Shown: in pieces, positions 13,395-24,368 of the stretch
How positions within the stretch are numbered: position 1 is the first letter of the stretch
Layout: each line of letters opens with the position of its first letter
Notes under the pieces: model-generated
What the model was told of the DNA's origin: nothing
Databases searched by the model: none
Seen by the model: the letters and a program-made list of their open reading frames with translations, nothing else
Made by a program: the position numbers and the translations under genes
NCBI RefSeq assembly: GCF_032999765.1
Contig: NZ_CP136051.1
Coordinates: forward strand, 3,572,417 to 3,636,416
Reading direction: 5' to 3'
Length of the DNA: 64,000 nucleotides
Source of the DNA: Imperialibacter roseus
GTDB taxonomy: Bacteria; Bacteroidota; Bacteroidia; Cytophagales; Cyclobacteriaceae

Positions 13395-13598
13395 ATGAGA
13401 ACCATCACGATAGACATTATTAACGAAAAGGCTATTAGCTTATTAAAAGATTTAGAACTGCTTAAGCTCATCAGAGTTCGAAAAGAAAAACTAGTTGATA
13501 AAACGACTAATTGGGCTAAGTACAAAGGAGCCATGACCAAGCAGCCATTGCATGATATTGACAAGCAGCTTGATGATCTGCGTGACGAATGGGAATAG
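13395..13598 (+). CDS. VapB-like antitoxin
   Basis: 67 residues. It starts with a short beta-strand/helix (MRTITIDIINEKAISLLKDL) and ends with an acidic C-terminus (DKQLDDLRDEWE), the usual layout of antitoxins paired with PIN-domain toxins in Bacteroidota. Its stop overlaps the start of the PIN-domain gene by 10 bp, so the two are translationally coupled. The antitoxin would bind the toxin through the C-terminus and the operon promoter through the N-terminus. The call rests on context and size; sequence similarity to named VapB types is weak. Confidence 0.65.
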   Translation: MRTITIDIINEKAISLLKDLELLKLIRVRKEKLVDKTTNWAKYKGAMTKQPLHDIDKQLDDLRDEWE

Positions 13599-13984
13599 AA
13601 TACCTTTGGGTTACCAATGTGGTCATCTACTATCTACAGCAACAGTTTTCTCCATCTGCAGAAAAATTCATAGACGCTATTTTAGCCAATTCTCAACCAT
13701 CAATTTCAAGTATTACTGAGATTGAACTCTTGTGCTGGAATGCGCCAACAGAAAAAGACCTGGAAGTAGTAAAAAACTTCATTGAGGATGCATGGGTATT
13801 TGAGCTTGAAAGCGCTGTTAAAATGAAAACTGCTGAAATCCGCAAAGCTCATAAGGTAAAACTACCCGATGCGATCATTGCCGCCACTGCCGTCGAATTT
13901 GACTTGACTCTTTTGACGAGAAATATCAATGACTTCAAAAATATACAAGCTTTGAAATTGGCAAACCCTTACGAAATTCAGTAG
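13589..13984 (+). CDS. PIN-domain VapC-like toxin with a substituted active-site Asp
   Basis: 131 residues with PIN-domain signatures: EYLWVTNVVIYYLQQ at the N-terminus, ITEIELLCW (acidic pair 44/46), KLPDAIIAAT (Asp 94) and LLTRNINDF (Asp 115). These acids coordinate Mg2+ for ribonuclease action. In functional relatives the first motif reads LWDTN, but here codon 8 is GTT (Val) where GAT (Asp) is expected, a single-base change. The other three acidic positions are intact and the frame is unbroken, so this looks like a recent catalytic loss or a neutralised toxin. It is coupled to the upstream antitoxin. Confidence 0.8.
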   Translation: MGIEYLWVTNVVIYYLQQQFSPSAEKFIDAILANSQPSISSITEIELLCWNAPTEKDLEVVKNFIEDAWVFELESAVKMKTAEIRKAHKVKLPDAIIAATAVEFDLTLLTRNINDFKNIQALKLANPYEIQ

Positions 13985-16393: not shown

Positions 16394-17662
16394 ATGGCAG
16401 TAGTTGAAATGGTGATGCCCAAAATGGGTGAAAGTATAATGGAAGGCACGATCCTTTCATGGTTGAAAAAGCCAGGAGAGACCATTGAACAGGATGAGTC
16501 GGTGCTGGAAGTGGCTACTGATAAAGTGGATACGGAGGTGCCCGCCACCCATGCTGGCGTGTTGAAAGAGATTTTGGCCAAAGAGGGTGAAGTAGTGCAG
16601 GTGGGCAAAGCCATTGCGATTATAGAAATTGAAGGAAGCAGTGAAAACGGACATACTGCTGACATCTCAGGGAATGGCAAGGACGCTGTGGCTCTTGCTA
16701 CCGAAATGGTCGAAACAGCCGTAGCAGCAGTGAGCCACACCCCCATTGCAAAGCCAAGCTCCGACAGATTCTACTCTCCCCTTGTGATGAGCATAGCCAA
16801 AGAAGAAAAGATCAGCACGTCAGAGCTGGAAGGAATTCCCGGCACTGGCAAGGAAGGCCGTGTTACCAAAAACGATATCCTCGCTTACATTCAAACCAGA
16901 GGAAAAAGCGCTGCCCCTAAAGTGGCCGAACCAATAAAAATCACTTACAGCGGCGACGATGAAATCATCGAAATGGATCGCATGCGCAAGATGATTGCAG
17001 AACGCATGCTGAGCAGCAGGCAGATCAGCGCTCATGTAACCTCATTTGTGGAAGCCGACGTAACCAACGTGGTGAACTGGAGAAACAAATGGAAGCGTTC
17101 CTTTCAGGAAAAGGAAAGAGCGGCCCTTACCTATACCCCCATTTTCATTGAAGCGATTGTGAAGGCCATCAAGGACTTCCCCATGATCAATATCTCGGTA
17201 GATGGCACAAAGATTGTCAGGCACCAGGCTGTGCACATTGGTATGGCCGTGGCATTGCCATCAGGCAACCTGATTGTGCCCGTGATCAAAAATGCAGACA
17301 AGCTGAGCCTGCTGGGCATTACCCATGCGGTGAACGACCTGGCTGAACGTGCCCGCACCAACAACCTGAAGGCCGACGAGCTTTCAGGAGGCACCTACAC
17401 CATCTCCAATGTGGGTGGTTTTGGCAATATCATGGGCACGCCTATTATCATGCAGCCTCAGGTGGCTATTATGGCCGTGGGTGCAGTGAAGAAAAAGCCA
17501 GCGGTAATCGAAACCCCACAGGGCGACTTCATCGGCATCCGCCACATGATGTTCCTCAGCCACAGCTACGACCACCGGGTGGTGGACGGCGCACTAGGAG
17601 GCATGTTTGTGAGGAAGGTAGCGGATTATTTGGAGCAGTTTGATACGACCCGTTCTATTTAG
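16394..17662 (+). CDS. Dihydrolipoamide acyltransferase (2-oxoacid dehydrogenase E2)
   Basis: 422 residues with the E2 domain order: one lipoyl domain (lipoyl Lys in ATDKVDTE, about residue 43), an E3/E1-binding domain (SPLVMSIAKEEKISTSELEG... GRVTKNDILAYI, about 122-172), then the catalytic acyltransferase domain ending with SHSYDHRVVDG, where His and Asp are catalytic. The single lipoyl domain fits branched-chain or 2-oxoglutarate type complexes as well as pyruvate; the substrate cannot be fixed. No E1 or E3 gene is adjacent, so this is an orphan copy. A degraded copy of its 3' end lies 115 bp downstream. Confidence 0.88.
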   Translation: MAVVEMVMPKMGESIMEGTILSWLKKPGETIEQDESVLEVATDKVDTEVPATHAGVLKEILAKEGEVVQVGKAIAIIEIEGSSENGHTADISGNGKDAVALATEMVETAVAAVSHTPIAKPSSDRFYSPLVMSIAKEEKISTSELEGIPGTGKEGRVTKNDILAYIQTRGKSAAPKVAEPIKITYSGDDEIIEMDRMRKMIAERMLSSRQISAHVTSFVEADVTNVVNWRNKWKRSFQEKERAALTYTPIFIEAIVKAIKDFPMINISVDGTKIVRHQAVHIGMAVALPSGNLIVPVIKNADKLSLLGITHAVNDLAERARTNNLKADELSGGTYTISNVGGFGNIMGTPIIMQPQVAIMAVGAVKKKPAVIETPQGDFIGIRHMMFLSHSYDHRVVDGALGGMFVRKVADYLEQFDTTRSI

Positions 17663-17700
17663 CTACACCAAGATTTGAAGCTCACCAACGACCACTTTAA

Positions 17701-17726
17701 AGCTCAAATTGAGTTGAATTTGAGCT
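17701..17726 (+). terminator. Inverted repeat after the E2 gene
   Basis: Perfect 10-bp arms AGCTCAAATT / AATTTGAGCT with a 6-nt loop, 38 bp after the E2 stop. It probably ends E2 transcription, but the stem is AT-rich and the downstream T content is moderate. Confidence 0.4.
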
Positions 17727-17777
17727 GTATTTCTAATATAGATGAGCCATAAATGCATTTCGACTAGCATTTTCTTT

Positions 17778-17864
17778 ATGATATTCCTCAGCCACGGCTA
17801 CGACCATCAAATAGCGAATGGAGCTTTGGGCGGCTGTTTTTTTGAAAGTGGGCTACTCAAATAG
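17778..17864 (+). pseudogene. Decayed duplicate of the E2 acyltransferase 3' end
   Basis: These 29 codons read MIFLSHGYDHQIANGALGG then diverge to a stop. The intact E2 gene reads MMFLSHSYDHRVVDGALGG at the equivalent place (17547-17603). At DNA level the first 31 bases differ at only three positions. The catalytic Asp of HxxxDG has become Asn. The remnant has the same orientation as E2, no start signals of its own, and lies between E2 and the AT-rich methyltransferase module. It could be an island attachment scar or a small tandem duplication. Confidence 0.75.
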
Positions 17865-17886
17865 TTATTTTAACACTCCTATTAGT

Positions 17887-18807
17887 TTATTCTAGTAGAG
17901 CGTCTGGTGATCCTTTATAAGTAATGAGCATTTTACCGCCCCTTTTTTCATGCTTATACTTAGTTGGATTTCTGTCTTTCAATACTTCACTCTTTAAGCT
18001 CTCACTAAAGAACAGAATTTCCTTGCCAATTCTGGCATCATATGCTGTGTGCTTAAATGAATACTCAATTTTGTCGACATCGGGATAAAGATCTTTTATT
18101 TCTTGCGCATTGTCATATGAAACTAACCAATTAGACAAATCGGAGTCGACTATTGACAAACTAACGGCTTTATGATCTTCAAGCTGATAATGATTTAGAT
18201 AAAGTGAGTCAGCCTTTTTGAAATAAGGAGGGTCTAGATATACTAGGCTGGATTCTTCCTTTCCAGTTGAAAAGGCCTTTATAACATCCAAAGCATCATC
18301 ATTTTTTACAATAATTGAGTCTTTAATTTCGGCAATCCTCTTTATCCGCTCGATCAATTCCTCTTTGTTAAATCGACAGTCAATTTTATAAGGGCTAGTT
18401 TGGTTTCTCCCGCCAATCATTCCCCCCATAATTATCCCTGACCTATTGGTTCTATTCATAAAAAATGAAGAAAAACCCAGATCCATAAGGTTTTCCTTCT
18501 CCTTGTTGTTCTGGATTGCCCTTTGGTTATCCCATTCAGAAAGGGAAATATCTGTGTTTCTAATTCTATAGATAAACTCATCACTATAATGGAGGATGGA
18601 GTACCAAAAACTGTAGATTGACCTGTCTTTGTCGTTAATGGTAACTTTTTTCACATAGCCATTCATCAAAAGAAAAAGTGCGACTGCGGCTCCGCCGCAA
18701 TACGGCTCTACATAGTGTTCGGTTAGGTTATTTTTTTCGCAGATCTTAGCGATAAAGGCAGATAGCTTATTTTTCCCACCTGGGTACCTTAAAGGAGAGT
18801 AGTTCAT
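17887..18807 (-). CDS. D12-class DNA N6-adenine methyltransferase (Dam-like)
   Basis: 306 residues. Class signatures: PLRYPGGKNKL at the N-terminus, the SAM-binding EPYCGGAAVALFL (about 34-46), a central insert with FFMNRTNRSGI, and the catalytic DPPY (192-195). Such enzymes methylate adenine in short motifs such as GATC. The gene is markedly AT-rich compared with its neighbours. It begins 5 bp after the ParB-fold gene, so the two form one unit. No restriction endonuclease is encoded nearby, so it may be an orphan modification enzyme or the modification half of a non-standard module. Confidence 0.88.
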   Translation of the reverse strand: MNYSPLRYPGGKNKLSAFIAKICEKNNLTEHYVEPYCGGAAVALFLLMNGYVKKVTINDKDRSIYSFWYSILHYSDEFIYRIRNTDISLSEWDNQRAIQNNKEKENLMDLGFSSFFMNRTNRSGIIMGGMIGGRNQTSPYKIDCRFNKEELIERIKRIAEIKDSIIVKNDDALDVIKAFSTGKEESSLVYLDPPYFKKADSLYLNHYQLEDHKAVSLSIVDSDLSNWLVSYDNAQEIKDLYPDVDKIEYSFKHTAYDARIGKEILFFSESLKSEVLKDRNPTKYKHEKRGGKMLITYKGSPDALLE

Positions 18808-18812
18808 TGTAA

Positions 18813-20216
18813 TTACTTAGGTGGATTCAAAACTATTTTAAACAGGGACTCCAACTGAGCATAGGCTTTTCTCACATCTCTTTCTGATGACGAGCAGTTT
18901 TCATTATGATTAATCATATTCATTCGTTCCAAAGAGTATGGTTGATCATAGTCAGATTTAACAATCTTTAGTGTTTCAATTAGATTCGAATCGTTAATCG
19001 AAGGTGATTTACCATTGATTATATGTGTTAGCATTTCACCTAGCTTGGGGTTGTGATTCTCCAATTTCTTTATTTCCTTAAACTCACCTGTTTCTTTGAA
19101 ATAAAATAGAAGAGAACACTCTAAAAAGCTTCTTAATAAGTCATGTGTTGCATTTGGAAAGTCTTGGACACTTATATTTCTTAACTCATCATATAGTATC
19201 CTCAAGCTTGAACTATTTAGTCTAAAGGGTAAGTCTCCAGAGTGATAAAGCCCCTTTGGTACAGTTTTGCTTCTAATATGGAGAGCTTTTGCTGTTTCAG
19301 CTTCTTGCCTTGGGTTAGTTATGGGTTTACTGCCAACTTCAATTATTTCATTTCCGAACAGGTCGCTTGTTGTGTTTACTTTGATTTTTTTTTCAACTTT
19401 TTCGGAATCCTTAGGGTCAATAGATCGGATAAAATCTTCAATTTTCTCCTTCTTGTTCAAGGTGCGGGAATCAATTCTATTTCCTTGAAGATCTGTTTTG
19501 TTCAAAATGCTAAATATGACAACCTTTAGCTCGTCTGAGAAATTAGGGTTTTGAACCTCTAAATCCCCCTTTTCCAATATTTTGTAACCATATTTTTTCT
19601 TTGCAGGCGTTGATGTAAGAGTCCTAAAAAAGTTTGTAACAAATCCTTTACCAAGTATTTTATCCTTTAACGCCTCCGGAATATCTAACGCTCTTACAGC
19701 ATTTGTAAGCCCCACTTTAAGTGAGTTATTGATCGTCTCATCCCCTCGCCTGGTATTGTAATTCACTCTTTCAGGCTCTTGCCAACCGACTTCATTATTC
19801 CCGTTGGCGTGCTTTCTGTCAATATATCTAAAACCGACAGCCTTATCCGTTGTTACTATGCATTCAACCGCAAAGCTCTCATCAACGGTAATTTTACTCT
19901 TTTGCCCGATTAAGAAATCCTTAAAAGTGGGATTGTCTGATAATTCTGGGTCTATGAGAAGCTTGTATGCAGTAAGCCTCCTATTCCCTTCCAAGACGAT
20001 ATTGTTATCCTCATCATTCCAAACTACAAGCTTTTCAAGCTGAGGCAACTCAAAATCTTTAACAACAGCTTCAACTAACTTCTTGATCTTGTATTCGGCA
20101 TTGCTAATAAAAAAATTTATTAAAACCCTCTCATCGGTGTTGTAGTACTTGTCTGGAAATCGGGCATTTTCGTCCCAAAGAATTAGGTCTTTAACTTTTA
20201 GTGTTTGTGTTTTCAT
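18813..20216 (-). CDS. ParB/sulfiredoxin-fold protein partnered with adenine methyltransferase
   Basis: 467 residues. The N-terminal 90 residues look like the ParB N-terminal (ParB/Srx) fold: VKDLILWDENARFPDKYY at the start and IVLEGNRRLTAYKLL (about 73-87), equivalent to the GERR box of ParB. The middle has a helix-rich region (NYNTRRGDETINNSLKVG and GKGFVTNFFRTLT). The last 150 residues (SGDLPFRLNSSSLRILYDEL through RDVRKAYAQLESLFKIV) are unrecognised. It lacks a clear DNA-binding HTH like that of chromosomal ParB. This fold can be a CTP switch, a nuclease or an adenylyl/phosphotransferase, so activity is open. AT-rich, and first gene of the two-gene module. Confidence 0.65.
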   Translation of the reverse strand: MKTQTLKVKDLILWDENARFPDKYYNTDERVLINFFISNAEYKIKKLVEAVVKDFELPQLEKLVVWNDEDNNIVLEGNRRLTAYKLLIDPELSDNPTFKDFLIGQKSKITVDESFAVECIVTTDKAVGFRYIDRKHANGNNEVGWQEPERVNYNTRRGDETINNSLKVGLTNAVRALDIPEALKDKILGKGFVTNFFRTLTSTPAKKKYGYKILEKGDLEVQNPNFSDELKVVIFSILNKTDLQGNRIDSRTLNKKEKIEDFIRSIDPKDSEKVEKKIKVNTTSDLFGNEIIEVGSKPITNPRQEAETAKALHIRSKTVPKGLYHSGDLPFRLNSSSLRILYDELRNISVQDFPNATHDLLRSFLECSLLFYFKETGEFKEIKKLENHNPKLGEMLTHIINGKSPSINDSNLIETLKIVKSDYDQPYSLERMNMINHNENCSSSERDVRKAYAQLESLFKIVLNPPK

Positions 20217-20433
20217 AGAAGTTTATGAAAGATTACTCAGACACATCAACGGACATCACAAACCACATTTCTAACACTCTCCGGCAATGCAAAACACTTC
20301 TTTCAATAGTAAATTAAGCAAAAAAAATACTACAATGCCCTTTATTGCTTGTAAGACTCCAATAGCCATTAAAAATCAGATGTTTTTTAATATATGTTGA
20401 AATGACAATAATCAATATCCTGGATTAGTATTA

Positions 20434-22119
20434 TTACCTCAACCCTACCTCCCTCTTCACCTTCCCTCCTTTTTCGGAATCAATAGTGATGGTAGCCTTG
20501 GGCGAATTGCCTGTTACTTTGAAGACATACTCAATCGTTTTGGTACGGTCAGCGCTTTCACCATCTCGGCGCCCGGCGAGGTTTCCAAGATCGGTCCTCA
20601 TTTTACCGCTGACCAACTCGGCGCCACTTAACTCAACAATCGCCCTTACAGGCTTGGCTATCTCCAGCTCTATGGCTCTTTCCGTGATATTGGTGGGCAA
20701 ATAGCCGTCGTTTTCTACAGTGAGGCTCACTTTCACCAGCTTACCTTTTTCCAGCACTTCTACTTTCGGTTGCGAAACGGCAATCTTCGGGCTGGTTTCT
20801 GCCAGCCACAGCATCCACTCCACATACTTTTCTATTTCTCCCTTCAGAAATTTAGTTGGTGGATTCTGGCGGGTAAACTTATAATCCCATCCACCAATTT
20901 CCACCTTGCCCAGCTGCGGGTGATCGTAAGCCTGCCAGTTGACAAAGCCCTTGCCGCCCAGTTCGGCGTCATTCCATTTCATCCTCTCCAAATCAGACAC
21001 ACGGCCATCTTTGTTGGCATCAGCCTGGAAGGCTCCCCAGAACTCCGGCACAAAGCCTACGACGCCGTAGTCCCAATAGCCCCAGCTGATCAGGGTGCCG
21101 TGGCGGTGCAGGCGGGGATTGCTATAGCTGGGCACCACCTTCTGGCTGGTAGTGGTGGCATATTTATCTGACAGCTCAAGGATGAGGCGCTGATCTTCCA
21201 TATTAAAGTTGTCCCAATTGGTAGTGGAAGGCAATCGGTAGAGAAACCCAGCGGCCGTGTGCCCATGGAAAATGCCGGTAATGTTGCGGTGCGTGCTCAA
21301 AAACTCAATGGTCGCCCTGGTTTCAGGCTCCGAAAGCGGATAAGGCCCGGCTCCTTTTTGCTCCGACTCCAGGCCCCAGTTGCGGGGGAAGTTGCGGTTC
21401 ATATCAATGCCACCAATACCGTCTTCGTTGTACAGTCCGTCTTTGTCATCATCAATTCCCTCGTCGTACATGTCGTAAAAATCGCCACTTAGGTCGTTGG
21501 GCTCTCGTTCCACCATGATGCGGGGATCTTCGGTACTGATTTTCCACTTGCCAGTGGGGTTCTTCACCCGCATGTCGGTGATGAGGTTGTCGCTGTTCAG
21601 GTCGTTGCCCGGGTCTTCGTCGAGCAGGCCGTCGCCGTCCTGATCATAGGGTCTGGGTGTGCTGCGCAGCGCCTGGGGAGTTGTCAGGGCAATGTCAGCG
21701 CCGTCCGGATTGAACTTGGGGCGGATGTAGATAGTACGAGTATCGATGAGGTTGGTAATGCGTGGATCCTTGCCGTAGCTGCTGAGCAGCAGCCAGGTAT
21801 AGTGCAGCGCTACTTCGGCACCCGTTAGCTCTCCAGCATGGATATTGCCGTCGTAGTAATAGGCTGGCTTGTCCTCTGCGGCGCCAGTGCTTTTGTTGGT
21901 GATTTCCAGCACCATCAGCTGAGTGCCTTTCAGCGTCTCGCCTATAGAATAGAGTTTGGTCAGGTTAGGATAGGCTTTGGCCCACTCCTGGAGCAAGTAG
22001 TAAGCATCAGCAGTGATGTGATACTTCGCCCAATTGGGGTTTTTAGGGTCTTCCTTCTGCGCCTGGGTGAATTGGGCAGCGGTGACAAGAACGGTAATGA
22101 AGAGCAACTTTTTAAGCAT
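20434..22119 (-). CDS. Secreted M14 zinc carboxypeptidase with EF-hand-like loops
   Basis: About 561 residues from the ATG at 22119, which begins the Sec signal (LLFITVLVTAAQFTQAQ); an upstream in-frame start would add 39 residues before the signal. The M14 site is visible: NIHAGE (His/Glu zinc ligands, about 94 and 97), MNRNFPRNW (substrate Arg region), GIFHGHTAAG (third zinc His) and VPEFWG (possible catalytic Glu). Inserted in the catalytic domain are acidic loops DQDGDGLLDED, DDDKDGLYNED and a canonical EF-hand loop DANKDGRVSDLE. A C-terminal beta domain follows. It likely trims peptides outside the cell in a calcium-dependent form. Confidence 0.88.
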   Translation of the reverse strand: MLKKLLFITVLVTAAQFTQAQKEDPKNPNWAKYHITADAYYLLQEWAKAYPNLTKLYSIGETLKGTQLMVLEITNKSTGAAEDKPAYYYDGNIHAGELTGAEVALHYTWLLLSSYGKDPRITNLIDTRTIYIRPKFNPDGADIALTTPQALRSTPRPYDQDGDGLLDEDPGNDLNSDNLITDMRVKNPTGKWKISTEDPRIMVEREPNDLSGDFYDMYDEGIDDDKDGLYNEDGIGGIDMNRNFPRNWGLESEQKGAGPYPLSEPETRATIEFLSTHRNITGIFHGHTAAGFLYRLPSTTNWDNFNMEDQRLILELSDKYATTTSQKVVPSYSNPRLHRHGTLISWGYWDYGVVGFVPEFWGAFQADANKDGRVSDLERMKWNDAELGGKGFVNWQAYDHPQLGKVEIGGWDYKFTRQNPPTKFLKGEIEKYVEWMLWLAETSPKIAVSQPKVEVLEKGKLVKVSLTVENDGYLPTNITERAIELEIAKPVRAIVELSGAELVSGKMRTDLGNLAGRRDGESADRTKTIEYVFKVTGNSPKATITIDSEKGGKVKREVGLR

Positions 22120-22247: not shown

Positions 22248-23213
22248 ATGATACGATCGGACACTTTCAATGTAGCATTCCTCCTGCTGATCAGCACAGC
22301 CATCTCGTCCTGCAAAGAAAAATCAGCAGGACAAGCTGAAGCCTCATTGCCTGACCAATTCATCATGGTGCTGGGTGTGGCGCAAGACGCCGGTTACCCG
22401 CAGGCTGGCTGCGAAAAAGCCTGTTGCCAACACTACTGGTCGGGTGAGCACAAAGAAGAGAGGGTGGTGAGCCTTGGCATCGTAGACAAGAAAGCCGGAA
22501 AGGTGTGGATGATCGAAGCCACGCCTGACTTCAAAAGCCAATGGCATGACCTGAATGAGAAGGCTGGTCTAAACAATACCTCTCCCGATGGCATTTTTCT
22601 CACCCATGCGCACGTAGGTCATTACACCGGATTGATGGAGCTGGGCAGAGAGATCATGGGGGCTGCCAGTGTGCCCGTTTACGGCATGCCGGTTATGCGG
22701 TCTTTCTTAACCCAAAATGGCCCCTGGAGCCAGCTGGTTGCCCTGGAAAATATCAGTCTGCAAAAGCTGGCGGCAGACTCTACGATTCAATTGTCACCTG
22801 ACATTTCCATCACCCCATTTCTTGTTCCACACAGAGACGAGTTTTCAGAAACCGTGGGTTACCGCATTGAAAGCGGGCGTAAGGGTGTCATCTTCATCCC
22901 CGATATTGATAAATGGAGCAAGTGGGACAGAAACATCAGAGAGTTGGTAGCATCTGCCGACGTGGCCTTTCTGGATGCCACCTTTTTTCGAAAAGGAGAA
23001 ATTGCCCGTGACATGAGCGAGGTGCCCCACCCTTTTGTAGAAGAATCGATGGCGCTATTTGAAGACTTGCCCGAAAGTGACAGACGGAAGGTACATTTCA
23101 TTCATTTCAATCATACCAATCCGTTAATATGGAGCGATGAAGAGATGAAAAATGTAAAAACTAATGGGTTTAATATTTCCAGAGAAGGTGACATATTCGA
23201 ATTAGTCAATTAA
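22248..23213 (+). CDS. PqqB-like metallo-beta-lactamase-fold lipoprotein
   Basis: 321 residues with a lipoprotein signal (LLLISTAISSC). The body matches the PqqB-like branch of the metallo-beta-lactamase superfamily: VLGVAQDAGYPQAGC near the start, ATPDFKSQW, LTHAHVGHYTGLMELGRE, FLVPHRDEFSETVGYRI, FIPDIDKWSKWDRNI and FIHFNHTNP. The motif is HAHVGH, with Gly where zinc enzymes have Asp, so only part of the classical metal site is kept. No other pqq genes are present, and export as a lipoprotein argues against a role in PQQ synthesis. Substrate unknown. Confidence 0.8.
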   Translation: MIRSDTFNVAFLLLISTAISSCKEKSAGQAEASLPDQFIMVLGVAQDAGYPQAGCEKACCQHYWSGEHKEERVVSLGIVDKKAGKVWMIEATPDFKSQWHDLNEKAGLNNTSPDGIFLTHAHVGHYTGLMELGREIMGAASVPVYGMPVMRSFLTQNGPWSQLVALENISLQKLAADSTIQLSPDISITPFLVPHRDEFSETVGYRIESGRKGVIFIPDIDKWSKWDRNIRELVASADVAFLDATFFRKGEIARDMSEVPHPFVEESMALFEDLPESDRRKVHFIHFNHTNPLIWSDEEMKNVKTNGFNISREGDIFELVN

Positions 23214-23244
23214 ATTGTATGAACAAAACTTATTTTCGACAACC

Positions 23245-23574
23245 ATGAACAAAATCCCCTCTTTTGTTTATCTCATTTTCCCAGGGTTCCATTTGGCACT
23301 CATTATTTCAAGCTTTTTTGGGGTTCGGTTTGATTCTTACTGGGGTGTTGATGCGCTATTTTCGGGCTTAATCATGGCCTTGATTGCTTCCATCCTTTAC
23401 ATCGTCCATGTAACAAAAAACCAGGAACTCAACCGGGAGGGCAAGTTCCAGTGGATACTGCTCATTGTAGTTGGAGGCTTGCTTGGCGAAATATATTACT
23501 GGTTCAAGCACATTCGGAAGGGCGAGTTTGCTAAGTCAAGAAATTCCAGGCGGTACTTCAACTCAAACATATAG
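23245..23574 (+). CDS. Small integral membrane protein of unknown function
   Basis: 109 residues with three membrane helices (YLIFPGFHLALIISSFFG, ALFSGLIMALIASILYIVH, WILLIVVGGLLGEIYYWFK) and a basic tail (HIRKGEFAKSRNSRRYF). The ATG at 23245 is preferred to a TTG at 23215. The last helix with a following basic stretch resembles the small PLD-N-type membrane segment, but no family is firmly recognised. It follows the PqqB-like gene by about 30 bp and may be cotranscribed. Confidence 0.55.
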   Translation: MNKIPSFVYLIFPGFHLALIISSFFGVRFDSYWGVDALFSGLIMALIASILYIVHVTKNQELNREGKFQWILLIVVGGLLGEIYYWFKHIRKGEFAKSRNSRRYFNSNI

Positions 23575-23610
23575 GCAACAGGTCAAACCGAAACTCTGAT
23601 ATCGAATTCA

Positions 23611-23638
23611 CTCAGTGTCTCCTGAAAGGGACGCTGAG
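23611..23638. repeat. REP-like hairpin, downstream side of the RAYT gene
   Basis: CTCAGTGTCTCC-TGAAA-GGGACGCTGAG forms a stem with one GT wobble and one mismatch. Its core CTCAGnGTCnC / GGGAnnCTGAG recurs in the hairpin on the other side of the transposase gene (24236-24270). Confidence 0.55.
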
Positions 23639-23647
23639 GAGTTTGAA

Positions 23648-24211
23648 CTAGATCACGTTTCTATAATGGAGCAAATATTTATTATCCTTACCTAACTCAT
23701 AAAATCCTGCACTTGAATGCGGATATGTTCTCCAGTCTTCTACAAGGCTCCATTTTCCGCTCACTGGATTATGATGGATATAATCCAGCTTTTGCTCAAC
23801 TATCTTTCGATTAAAGCATTTCTTAGCATCAAACGACAATCTAAAAACTTCGTGTTGCTTGTTCTTGTTCTTTTCACTTTCTCTTACATGCGACGATAAT
23901 TGCGTCAAAAGGTCTGACTGACCAGACTTCTTTAGCCTCTTAACAATCTCGTACGCCAAAAAGCGCTTGCCATTCCCTACGAGGTTATTCAAAGAAATTC
24001 CGCATTTGTCGCCCAAATAAACAAGTCCATGAAAATGGTTTGGCATTATGACATACCCCACCAGAGAAGCATCATTTTTAAGCAAGTAACCAAACCACTT
24101 ATTGAAATATTCATAAAGCGAAGTCTTGTCGAAAAGGGGTAGCCATTCAAAGCAGGTAAATGTAATAAAGTAGATTGTGCCGATCTCTGTATGCTTAGTG
24201 TGTGTTGACAT
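23648..24211 (-). CDS. REP-associated tyrosine transposase (RAYT, Y1 HUH family)
   Basis: 187 residues. The HUH nuclease marks are complete: YVIMPNHFHGLVYLG (His 59 and His 61) and the catalytic tyrosine in KLDYIHHNPV (Tyr 144). An FITFTCFEWLPLF start and the HNPVSGKW / YPHSSAGFY end are typical of chromosomal RAYTs in Bacteroidota rather than IS200 elements. It acts on single-stranded palindromes and is thought to spread REP sequences. Similar hairpins flank it at 23611-23638 and 24236-24270, and no IS ends were found. AT-richer than its neighbours. Confidence 0.9.
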   Translation of the reverse strand: MSTHTKHTEIGTIYFITFTCFEWLPLFDKTSLYEYFNKWFGYLLKNDASLVGYVIMPNHFHGLVYLGDKCGISLNNLVGNGKRFLAYEIVKRLKKSGQSDLLTQLSSHVRESEKNKNKQHEVFRLSFDAKKCFNRKIVEQKLDYIHHNPVSGKWSLVEDWRTYPHSSAGFYELGKDNKYLLHYRNVI

Positions 24212-24235
24212 AGGGTAGAAAATATTCTCTTAATA

Positions 24236-24270
24236 CTCAGAGTCCCCTCCTATCGTCGGGAGACTCTGAG
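24236..24270. repeat. REP-like hairpin, upstream side of the RAYT gene
   Basis: CTCAGAGTCCCC and GGGAGACTCTGAG form the arms, with a loop around CTATCGTC. It shares the CTCAGnGTC core with the hairpin on the far side of the transposase gene, the usual arrangement of a RAYT with its cognate REP sequences. Confidence 0.55.
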
Positions 24271-24307
24271 GGAATACTAGTCGATGCTCCCAAAATTGTG
24301 CGCCTAA

Positions 24308-24355
24308 AGTAAAGAGGTTACTATCTGCGCTCCCGCACATAGTAACCTCTTTACT
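24308..24355. repeat. Dispersed palindrome, copy 1 (likely also a terminator)
   Basis: Arms of 19 bp (TAAAGAGGTTACTATCTGC and its near complement) with a 6-nt loop and one mismatch; outer bases extend the stem by two more pairs. The same arms, with a different loop, occur at 50947-50994. This copy lies after the RDD gene (leftward) and is followed by a CTTTACTTTT run on the plus strand. Confidence 0.75.
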
Positions 24356-24368
24356 TTTCCGCTCCCTC

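Follow-up and report, generated by a model that had tools for sequence, protein, structure and literature searches.

A PD-Lambda-5-type gene pair in Imperialibacter roseus joins a predicted ParB-HEPN protein to a D12-class adenine methyltransferase

Matches to family models place two adjacent genes of Imperialibacter roseus (called A and B below) in PD-Lambda-5, a two-gene anti-phage system, and the pair itself is accordingly of an already known kind. The reading preferred for its mode of action, to which a probability of about 0.6 was assigned, is modification-gated abortive infection, in which the methyltransferase B would mark self DNA and A, a predicted ParB-HEPN protein, would destroy RNA upon meeting unmarked phage DNA. 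Both genes lie in a stretch of 64,000 nucleotides of contig NZ_CP136051.1 (referred to as the window), in the coordinates of which the following features were located.

17663-20448, no strand: stretch unmatched in the congener G770 by genome comparison (GC 0.362)
17778-17848, plus strand: degenerate duplicate of the 3'-terminal part of the adjacent E2 gene, at the insertion edge, by alignment
17887-18807, minus strand: gene B, 306 aa, PD-Lambda-5_B, a D12-class N6-adenine DNA methyltransferase by its matches to PF02086 and PDLC04018
18772-18783 and 18223-18234, minus strand: motifs PGGK and DPPY of B, respectively, both intact
18813-20216, minus strand: gene A, 467 aa, PD-Lambda-5_A, with a ParB-type N-terminal domain, a helical middle, a linker and a predicted C-terminal HEPN-like domain
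19782-20216, minus strand: residues 1-145 of A, ParB-CTPase fold by structure match and conservation (N17/R19; GNRR, residues 77-80, at 19977-19988)
18813-19241, minus strand: residues 326-467 of A, predicted HEPN-like domain with E344, R362, E366, H437 (His codon 18906-18908) and R431-x5-H437

The layout of the original prediction, with ORFs of 467 and 306 residues on the minus strand, was confirmed, B lying downstream of A after a spacing of 5 bp (18808-18812), and the claimed AT-richness was likewise upheld by GC fractions of 0.362 (A) and 0.371 (B) relative to 0.475 in the remainder of the window. Within the window the pair stands alone; A is present in a single copy in its own genome (6.75 Mb, one contig searched), and one B-type gene was found there at E <= 1e-40. 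The pair is flanked by two housekeeping genes, one for a 2-oxoacid dehydrogenase E2 and one for an M14 peptidase, both confirmed by Pfam. In G770, the sole other genome of the genus that was compared, the E2 gene is 89% identical to the flanking E2 gene of the window and is likewise followed by the M14 peptidase gene. Homology to G770 stops at 17660 and restarts at 20449, leaving about 2.79 kb between the homologous flanks in the window, compared to about 70 bp in G770. The degenerate E2 copy showed 75% identity over 72 nt to the E2 gene of G770 and 74% over 57 nt to that of the window itself. A and B were either gained in Imperialibacter roseus or lost in G770, and gain is favoured because the insertion is AT-rich. 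Besides A and B, the stretch from 17663 to 20448 holds three ORFs of at least 60 aa, all antisense inside A; the insertion showed neither an integrase ORF nor paired repeats (at least 14 nt) linking its two ends, and no phage gene was seen in it.

In PADLOC, A matched PD-Lambda-5_A (PDLC03998; 6.1e-44) over residues 1-462 of 467, and B matched PD-Lambda-5_B (PDLC04018; 1.1e-112) over residues 2-279, so that both proteins fit the models nearly end to end and in the same gene order. The methyltransferase also matched Pfam MethyltransfD12 (PF02086; 5.8e-21) and contains both PGGK and DPPY, as originally noted. The first protein had been considered mostly unknown, which does not agree with a PD-Lambda-5_A model spanning residues 1-462; a known defence family thus accounts for A as a whole, one of the two outcomes named in the original prediction as speaking against it. 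Its supposedly unrecognised C-terminal part is indeed without a family in Pfam and NCBIfam, but is covered by the models of PADLOC and PHROGs, in the latter case by phrog_9592 (4e-27), a phage family without known function. Pfam gave nothing significant on A and did not report ParB_N, and a PDB sequence search with A gave no lead. Three other assignments were rejected: housekeeping Dam for B (58.3 bits against the TIGR00571 cut-off of 114.85), partition ParB for A (no ParA among the eight neighbouring window ORFs scanned with Pfam), and a type II restriction-modification (RM) system with a separate restriction endonuclease gene (the only other ORFs of at least 60 aa are those antisense in A, and the flanks encode E2 and the M14 peptidase).

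According to Vassallo 2022 (PMC9519451), PD-Lambda-5 was picked experimentally in E. coli by its anti-phage effect, and was likened by the authors to RM combined with abortive infection (RM+Abi). A worked-out mechanism was not found in the open-licence literature (bioRxiv and the figures and supplements of Vassallo 2022 fall outside this scope). In the pair of E. coli KL53, which would be close to the original PD-lambda-5, A agrees with window A at 12 of 13 residues checked, the sole difference being D in place of E366, and B is 45% identical to that of the window. The KL53 pair is prophage-borne, located between the replication endonuclease and the portal of a P2-like prophage, a site described in the same paper as a hotspot for such systems (PMC9519451), and a search at megablast sensitivity recovered it from 22 of 5,426 E. 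coli genomes; the window pair, in contrast, resides in a chromosomal insertion in a Bacteroidota genome, and its anti-phage activity is a prediction. A and B also lie side by side near an integrase in the temperate-looking Marinobacter phage AS1. An order-level survey of 390 genomes with the single A model PDLC03998 gave matches in 15, of which 11 were partial (N-terminal region only) and four, including the window, near full length; two of the partial cases (L013 and L017) do have B adjoining. Since PD-Lambda-5_A models also match shorter ParB proteins of other neighbourhoods, they are a source of false calls. Such short ParB proteins of about 365 aa, with other gene neighbours, were seen at L007, L009 and L010, the neighbour at L007 being a P-loop ATPase as judged by eye. 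Genome G130 carries the A+B pair twice (L003 and L018), the two copies encoding identical proteins and lying 39 kb from each other.

The N-terminal sequence of A, which contains VLEGNRRLTAYKLL, had been claimed to be ParB-like, and the structural model endorses this. AlphaFold2 (45 sequences) gave a model of A with a mean pLDDT of 85.2 and a pTM of 0.55, in which residues 1-145 matched Myxococcus xanthus ParB bound to CTP-gamma-S or CDP with a Z of 9.2 (95 residues, rmsd 2.6). Conservation was evaluated in 65 of 68 A proteins, all of at least 420 aa with B within 3 kb and retained at an alignment score above 60. R19, GNRR, H136 and W145 were invariant in all 65 of these full-length relatives, with N17 and R198 conserved in 98% and 94%, respectively. 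A test for the ParB-CTPase fold found the fold itself together with N17/R19 and GNRR, which we take to be box I (the C motif) and box II (the P motif), respectively. The box names are those used in PMC12704722, which reports fusions of ParB folds with other domains as well as their binding of CTP, ATP or GTP; these proteins share the N-terminal fold and a GNRR-type P motif with A, but the main text of that paper never uses the word HEPN. As modelled, the N-terminus of A is a ParB-type nucleotide-switch fold. Of the two roles put forward for it in the original prediction, nuclease or switch, the evidence favours the switch, with a separate, predicted HEPN-like domain at the C-terminus as the effector. 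A GmrSD/SspE-like reading of A was rejected, as SspE reached just Z 4.4, in the N-terminal part, and Pfam found no HNH in A.

In the full model of A, residues 332-467 matched HepT and other HEPN proteins with Z up to 7.6. When residues 326-467 were folded alone (pLDDT 91.7, pTM 0.86), the best structure match was the HEPN protein 2hsb (rmsd 3.0, 118 residues) with a Z of 9.1, a level that according to the comparison tool possibly reflects a common arrangement in helical bundles. Next came AbiA, which has a HEPN domain, and 4nqf (both 8.9), then a Sulfolobus protein without characterisation (8.7), sacsin HEPN (8.4) and HepT (8.1). Ten of the top 21 rows carried HEPN in their titles, four were HepT-type toxin-antitoxin entries, one was AbiA and six had no such title; rows of other kinds entered the list from Z 5.7 down. 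Because Foldseek gave no significant match for residues 326-467 (best E 0.81), the HEPN call rests on this second structure comparison and its consistent list, from which the A C-terminus (approximately residues 332-467) is predicted to be a HEPN-like domain.

Across the 65 relatives E344, R362, E366 and H437 were conserved in 94%, 97%, 89% and 97%, respectively, and this near-invariance across very divergent sequences suggests a working site. The canonical HEPN motif is Rx4-6H, and it is conserved in HEPN proteins such as HepT, AbiA and Csm6, with which A shares the fold; the A family conserves the E-R-E-H set instead. Window A has this motif as R431-x5-H437, but Rx4-6H occurs in only five of the 63 relatives that have the His, and R362 and E366 may stand in for the missing motif Arg. 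As the conserved set of the family differs from Rx4-6H, the RNase activity of A is uncertain; A nevertheless probably carries an RNA-cutting suicide domain, as judged from its predicted fold. Tandem A genes were found at three loci (L019/L005, L020/L004 and L045), which form one clade by their B and thus represent one event. Both copies retain all nine residues examined at positions 17, 19, 77-80, 136, 145 and 198, and H437 has been lost in one copy.

The two genes had been proposed to belong together, and the pair does recur across many genomes. Prior to counting, window copies (L001, L006 and L169) and identical proteins were dropped. When viral contigs were searched with A, 35 of 38 full-length A proteins had B within 600 bp, so that the first gene is not usually found without the methyltransferase; the three exceptions were the first copy of a tandem, a contig edge and a B located 1,023 bp away. 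Among shorter ParB-type ORFs with intact ends the corresponding figure was 4 of 18. Out of 77 A-type ORFs of at least 420 aa, nine had no B within 3 kb: two each at L004 and L005, where B falls outside the locus and is visible in L020 and L019, two at contig edges (L037 and L041), two with another architecture or a fragment (L016 and L043), and one real exception, a long A in the Vibrio phage locus L024 (1-3284), where an HNH-endonuclease gene adjoins and no B-like gene was present in the 5.6 kb examined. Searches starting from B gave 36 distinct B-clade proteins on viral contigs (from the best 80 of at least 553 relatives), of which 23 had A within 600 bp, 12 had an OLD-like AAA protein as partner and one, at a locus cut there, had neither. 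In 395 Bacteroidota genomes, 18 B-clade proteins besides that of the window were accompanied by A (14), the OLD-like protein (1) or neither (3), the last comprising one with stops, one at a contig end and one real case (L182). The complete B-clade set consisted of 94 proteins at 230 bits or more with the A2 model, including the B of the window, from loci found by A or by B; because it mixes both, the A-first and B-first counts were kept apart. Its partners were A in 74 cases, OLD-like in 13 and neither within 600 bp in seven, the viral B-first share again stemming from the best 80 of at least 553. Lower-scoring D12 methyltransferase ORFs had A within 600 bp in only 2 of 41 cases (a second methyltransferase of the A+B locus L064 and a fragment of the L026 B) and an OLD-like partner in none. 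The PADLOC matches and the recurrence in many genomes establish that the pairing of A and B is beyond chance. At L182 (1483-2370), the B-clade methyltransferase without A or OLD-like partner has a 308-aa neighbour on the other strand (524-1450), possibly a third type of partner.

The alternative partner of B is an OLD-like AAA protein of about 470-580 aa, recognised with a model derived from 11 of these 13 proteins. In 13 of 94 cases, and also in E. coli, it stands in the place of A next to a methyltransferase of the same clade; it is unrelated to A in sequence and is absent from the window. The viral loci are L089, L091, L097, L102, L104, L105, L110, L112, L116, L117, L120 and L122, and further combinations with a PD-Lambda-5_B-type gene lie at L200 (1939-4588), L201 (1845-4557) and L172. 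Six of the OLD-like partners, as well as that of E. coli M10, match Pfam AAA_15/AAA_21, and five that were scanned gave weak matches to AriA, GajA and PtuA models. Pointers to a TOPRIM part are a PADLOC ATPase-Toprim model and, on visual inspection, E and DxD motifs; Pfam gave no TOPRIM match. In a quick methyltransferase tree with SH-aLRT support only, the partner switches at least eight times, five when only starred branches are considered. The B proteins of L105 and L097, which adjoin an OLD-like gene, share 77-82% identity with the B proteins of L062 and L108, which adjoin A. At L035 (3333-7420), OLD-like, A and B genes follow each other on one strand. In E. coli the OLD-like + B pair, the B of which also matches PD-Lambda-5_B, was present in 87 of 5,426 genomes, in two sets of 85 (many of them near-identical strains) and two without overlap among the rows seen; its sites were, in M10, a region where integrase and phage genes lie and, elsewhere, an integrative conjugative element. 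No description of this pair was found in the open-licence literature (bioRxiv lying outside that scope), and it is a candidate separate defence system.

We conclude that B marks self DNA, presumably by methylation, and that A, elsewhere the OLD-like protein, is an exchangeable effector. In the mechanism preferred, B would methylate adenine in its target site throughout host DNA as a self mark, and A, a nucleotide-binding ParB-type reader (possibly gated by NTP) joined to a HEPN effector, would be inactive on DNA so marked. Incoming phage DNA that is unmarked, the most likely trigger of A, would load or switch the ParB domain, which in turn would activate the HEPN domain and lead to cleavage of RNA, so that the infected cell would be stopped, amounting to RM + Abi in two genes. 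A methylation-based defence module, as first suggested, is the best reading of the pair. Mrr attacks some methylated DNA, and a host without mrr is therefore compatible with in vivo methylation by B; the host used by Vassallo 2022 lacked the mrr region (PMC9519451).

A compact true RM system, in which phage DNA lacking methylation is cut by A itself, using either the ParB fold or a nuclease site not yet recognised, and the cells survive, would also account for the pairing with a methyltransferase. It could draw on the replacement of A by OLD-like ATPases weakly matching models of GajA, a DNA nicking endonuclease, and on ParB-family proteins reported as nickases or nucleases in PMC12839542 and PMC10853773. 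It is nevertheless unlikely, considering that Pfam finds no restriction-nuclease family in A, that the conserved C-terminal site lies in a HEPN-like fold, known for RNA cleavage, and that the comparison made in PMC9519451 is to RM+Abi. The structures closest to the A C-terminus include HepT toxins, and A is mostly accompanied by B, as would be expected if A were a HEPN toxin curbed by B or its mark and the anti-phage effect arose from loss of B during infection. Such an addiction or toxin-antitoxin function is improbable, given that a plain toxin has no need of the invariant ParB-type nucleotide-binding motif and that B pairs with OLD-like partners too. It is slightly less probable still that the HEPN-like domain has only a structural role and the activity lies with the ParB domain, for instance through consuming or sensing NTPs: the occurrence of Rx4-6H in just 5 of 63 relatives and the tandem copies that lack the HEPN His and still retain the N-terminal residues are in line with this, but the near-invariance of the E-R-E-H set is not. 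A phage-derived pair that serves as an orphan epigenetic regulator without a defence role, as the numerous relatives on viral contigs might imply, is hardly credible for a system selected for its anti-phage effect (PMC9519451), and partner exchange suits effectors better than regulators.

More tentatively, PD-Lambda-5 could be one branch of a wider modular immunity, in which one adenine methyltransferase clade marks self and unrelated effectors, either a ParB-switched HEPN ribonuclease or an OLD-like AAA nuclease (at L035 both together), are swapped to read the mark. On this view it would be an RM system whose 'restriction' step destroys RNA under NTP control and does not cut phage DNA, and the OLD-like + PD-Lambda-5_B pair would be a separate system. 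Closely related methyltransferases beside two unrelated effectors constitute a natural experiment, and the window pair makes the PD-Lambda-5 mechanism testable through E344, R362, E366 and H437 and through the nucleotide switch. Two features deserve following: the swapping of partners beside B and the tandem A copies that are HEPN-dead.

Elsewhere in the window, a PIN-domain protein (VapC-like) is encoded at 13589-13984, about 4 kb from the pair. A second stretch without a match in G770 was found at 23156-24305; the congener has about 110 bp at the corresponding place. The stretch holds a weakly IS200-like ORF at 23648-24211 (Y1_Tnp, E 0.059), adjoined by a 24-nt inverted repeat at 24306-24357, and this ORF perhaps encodes a REP-associated transposase.
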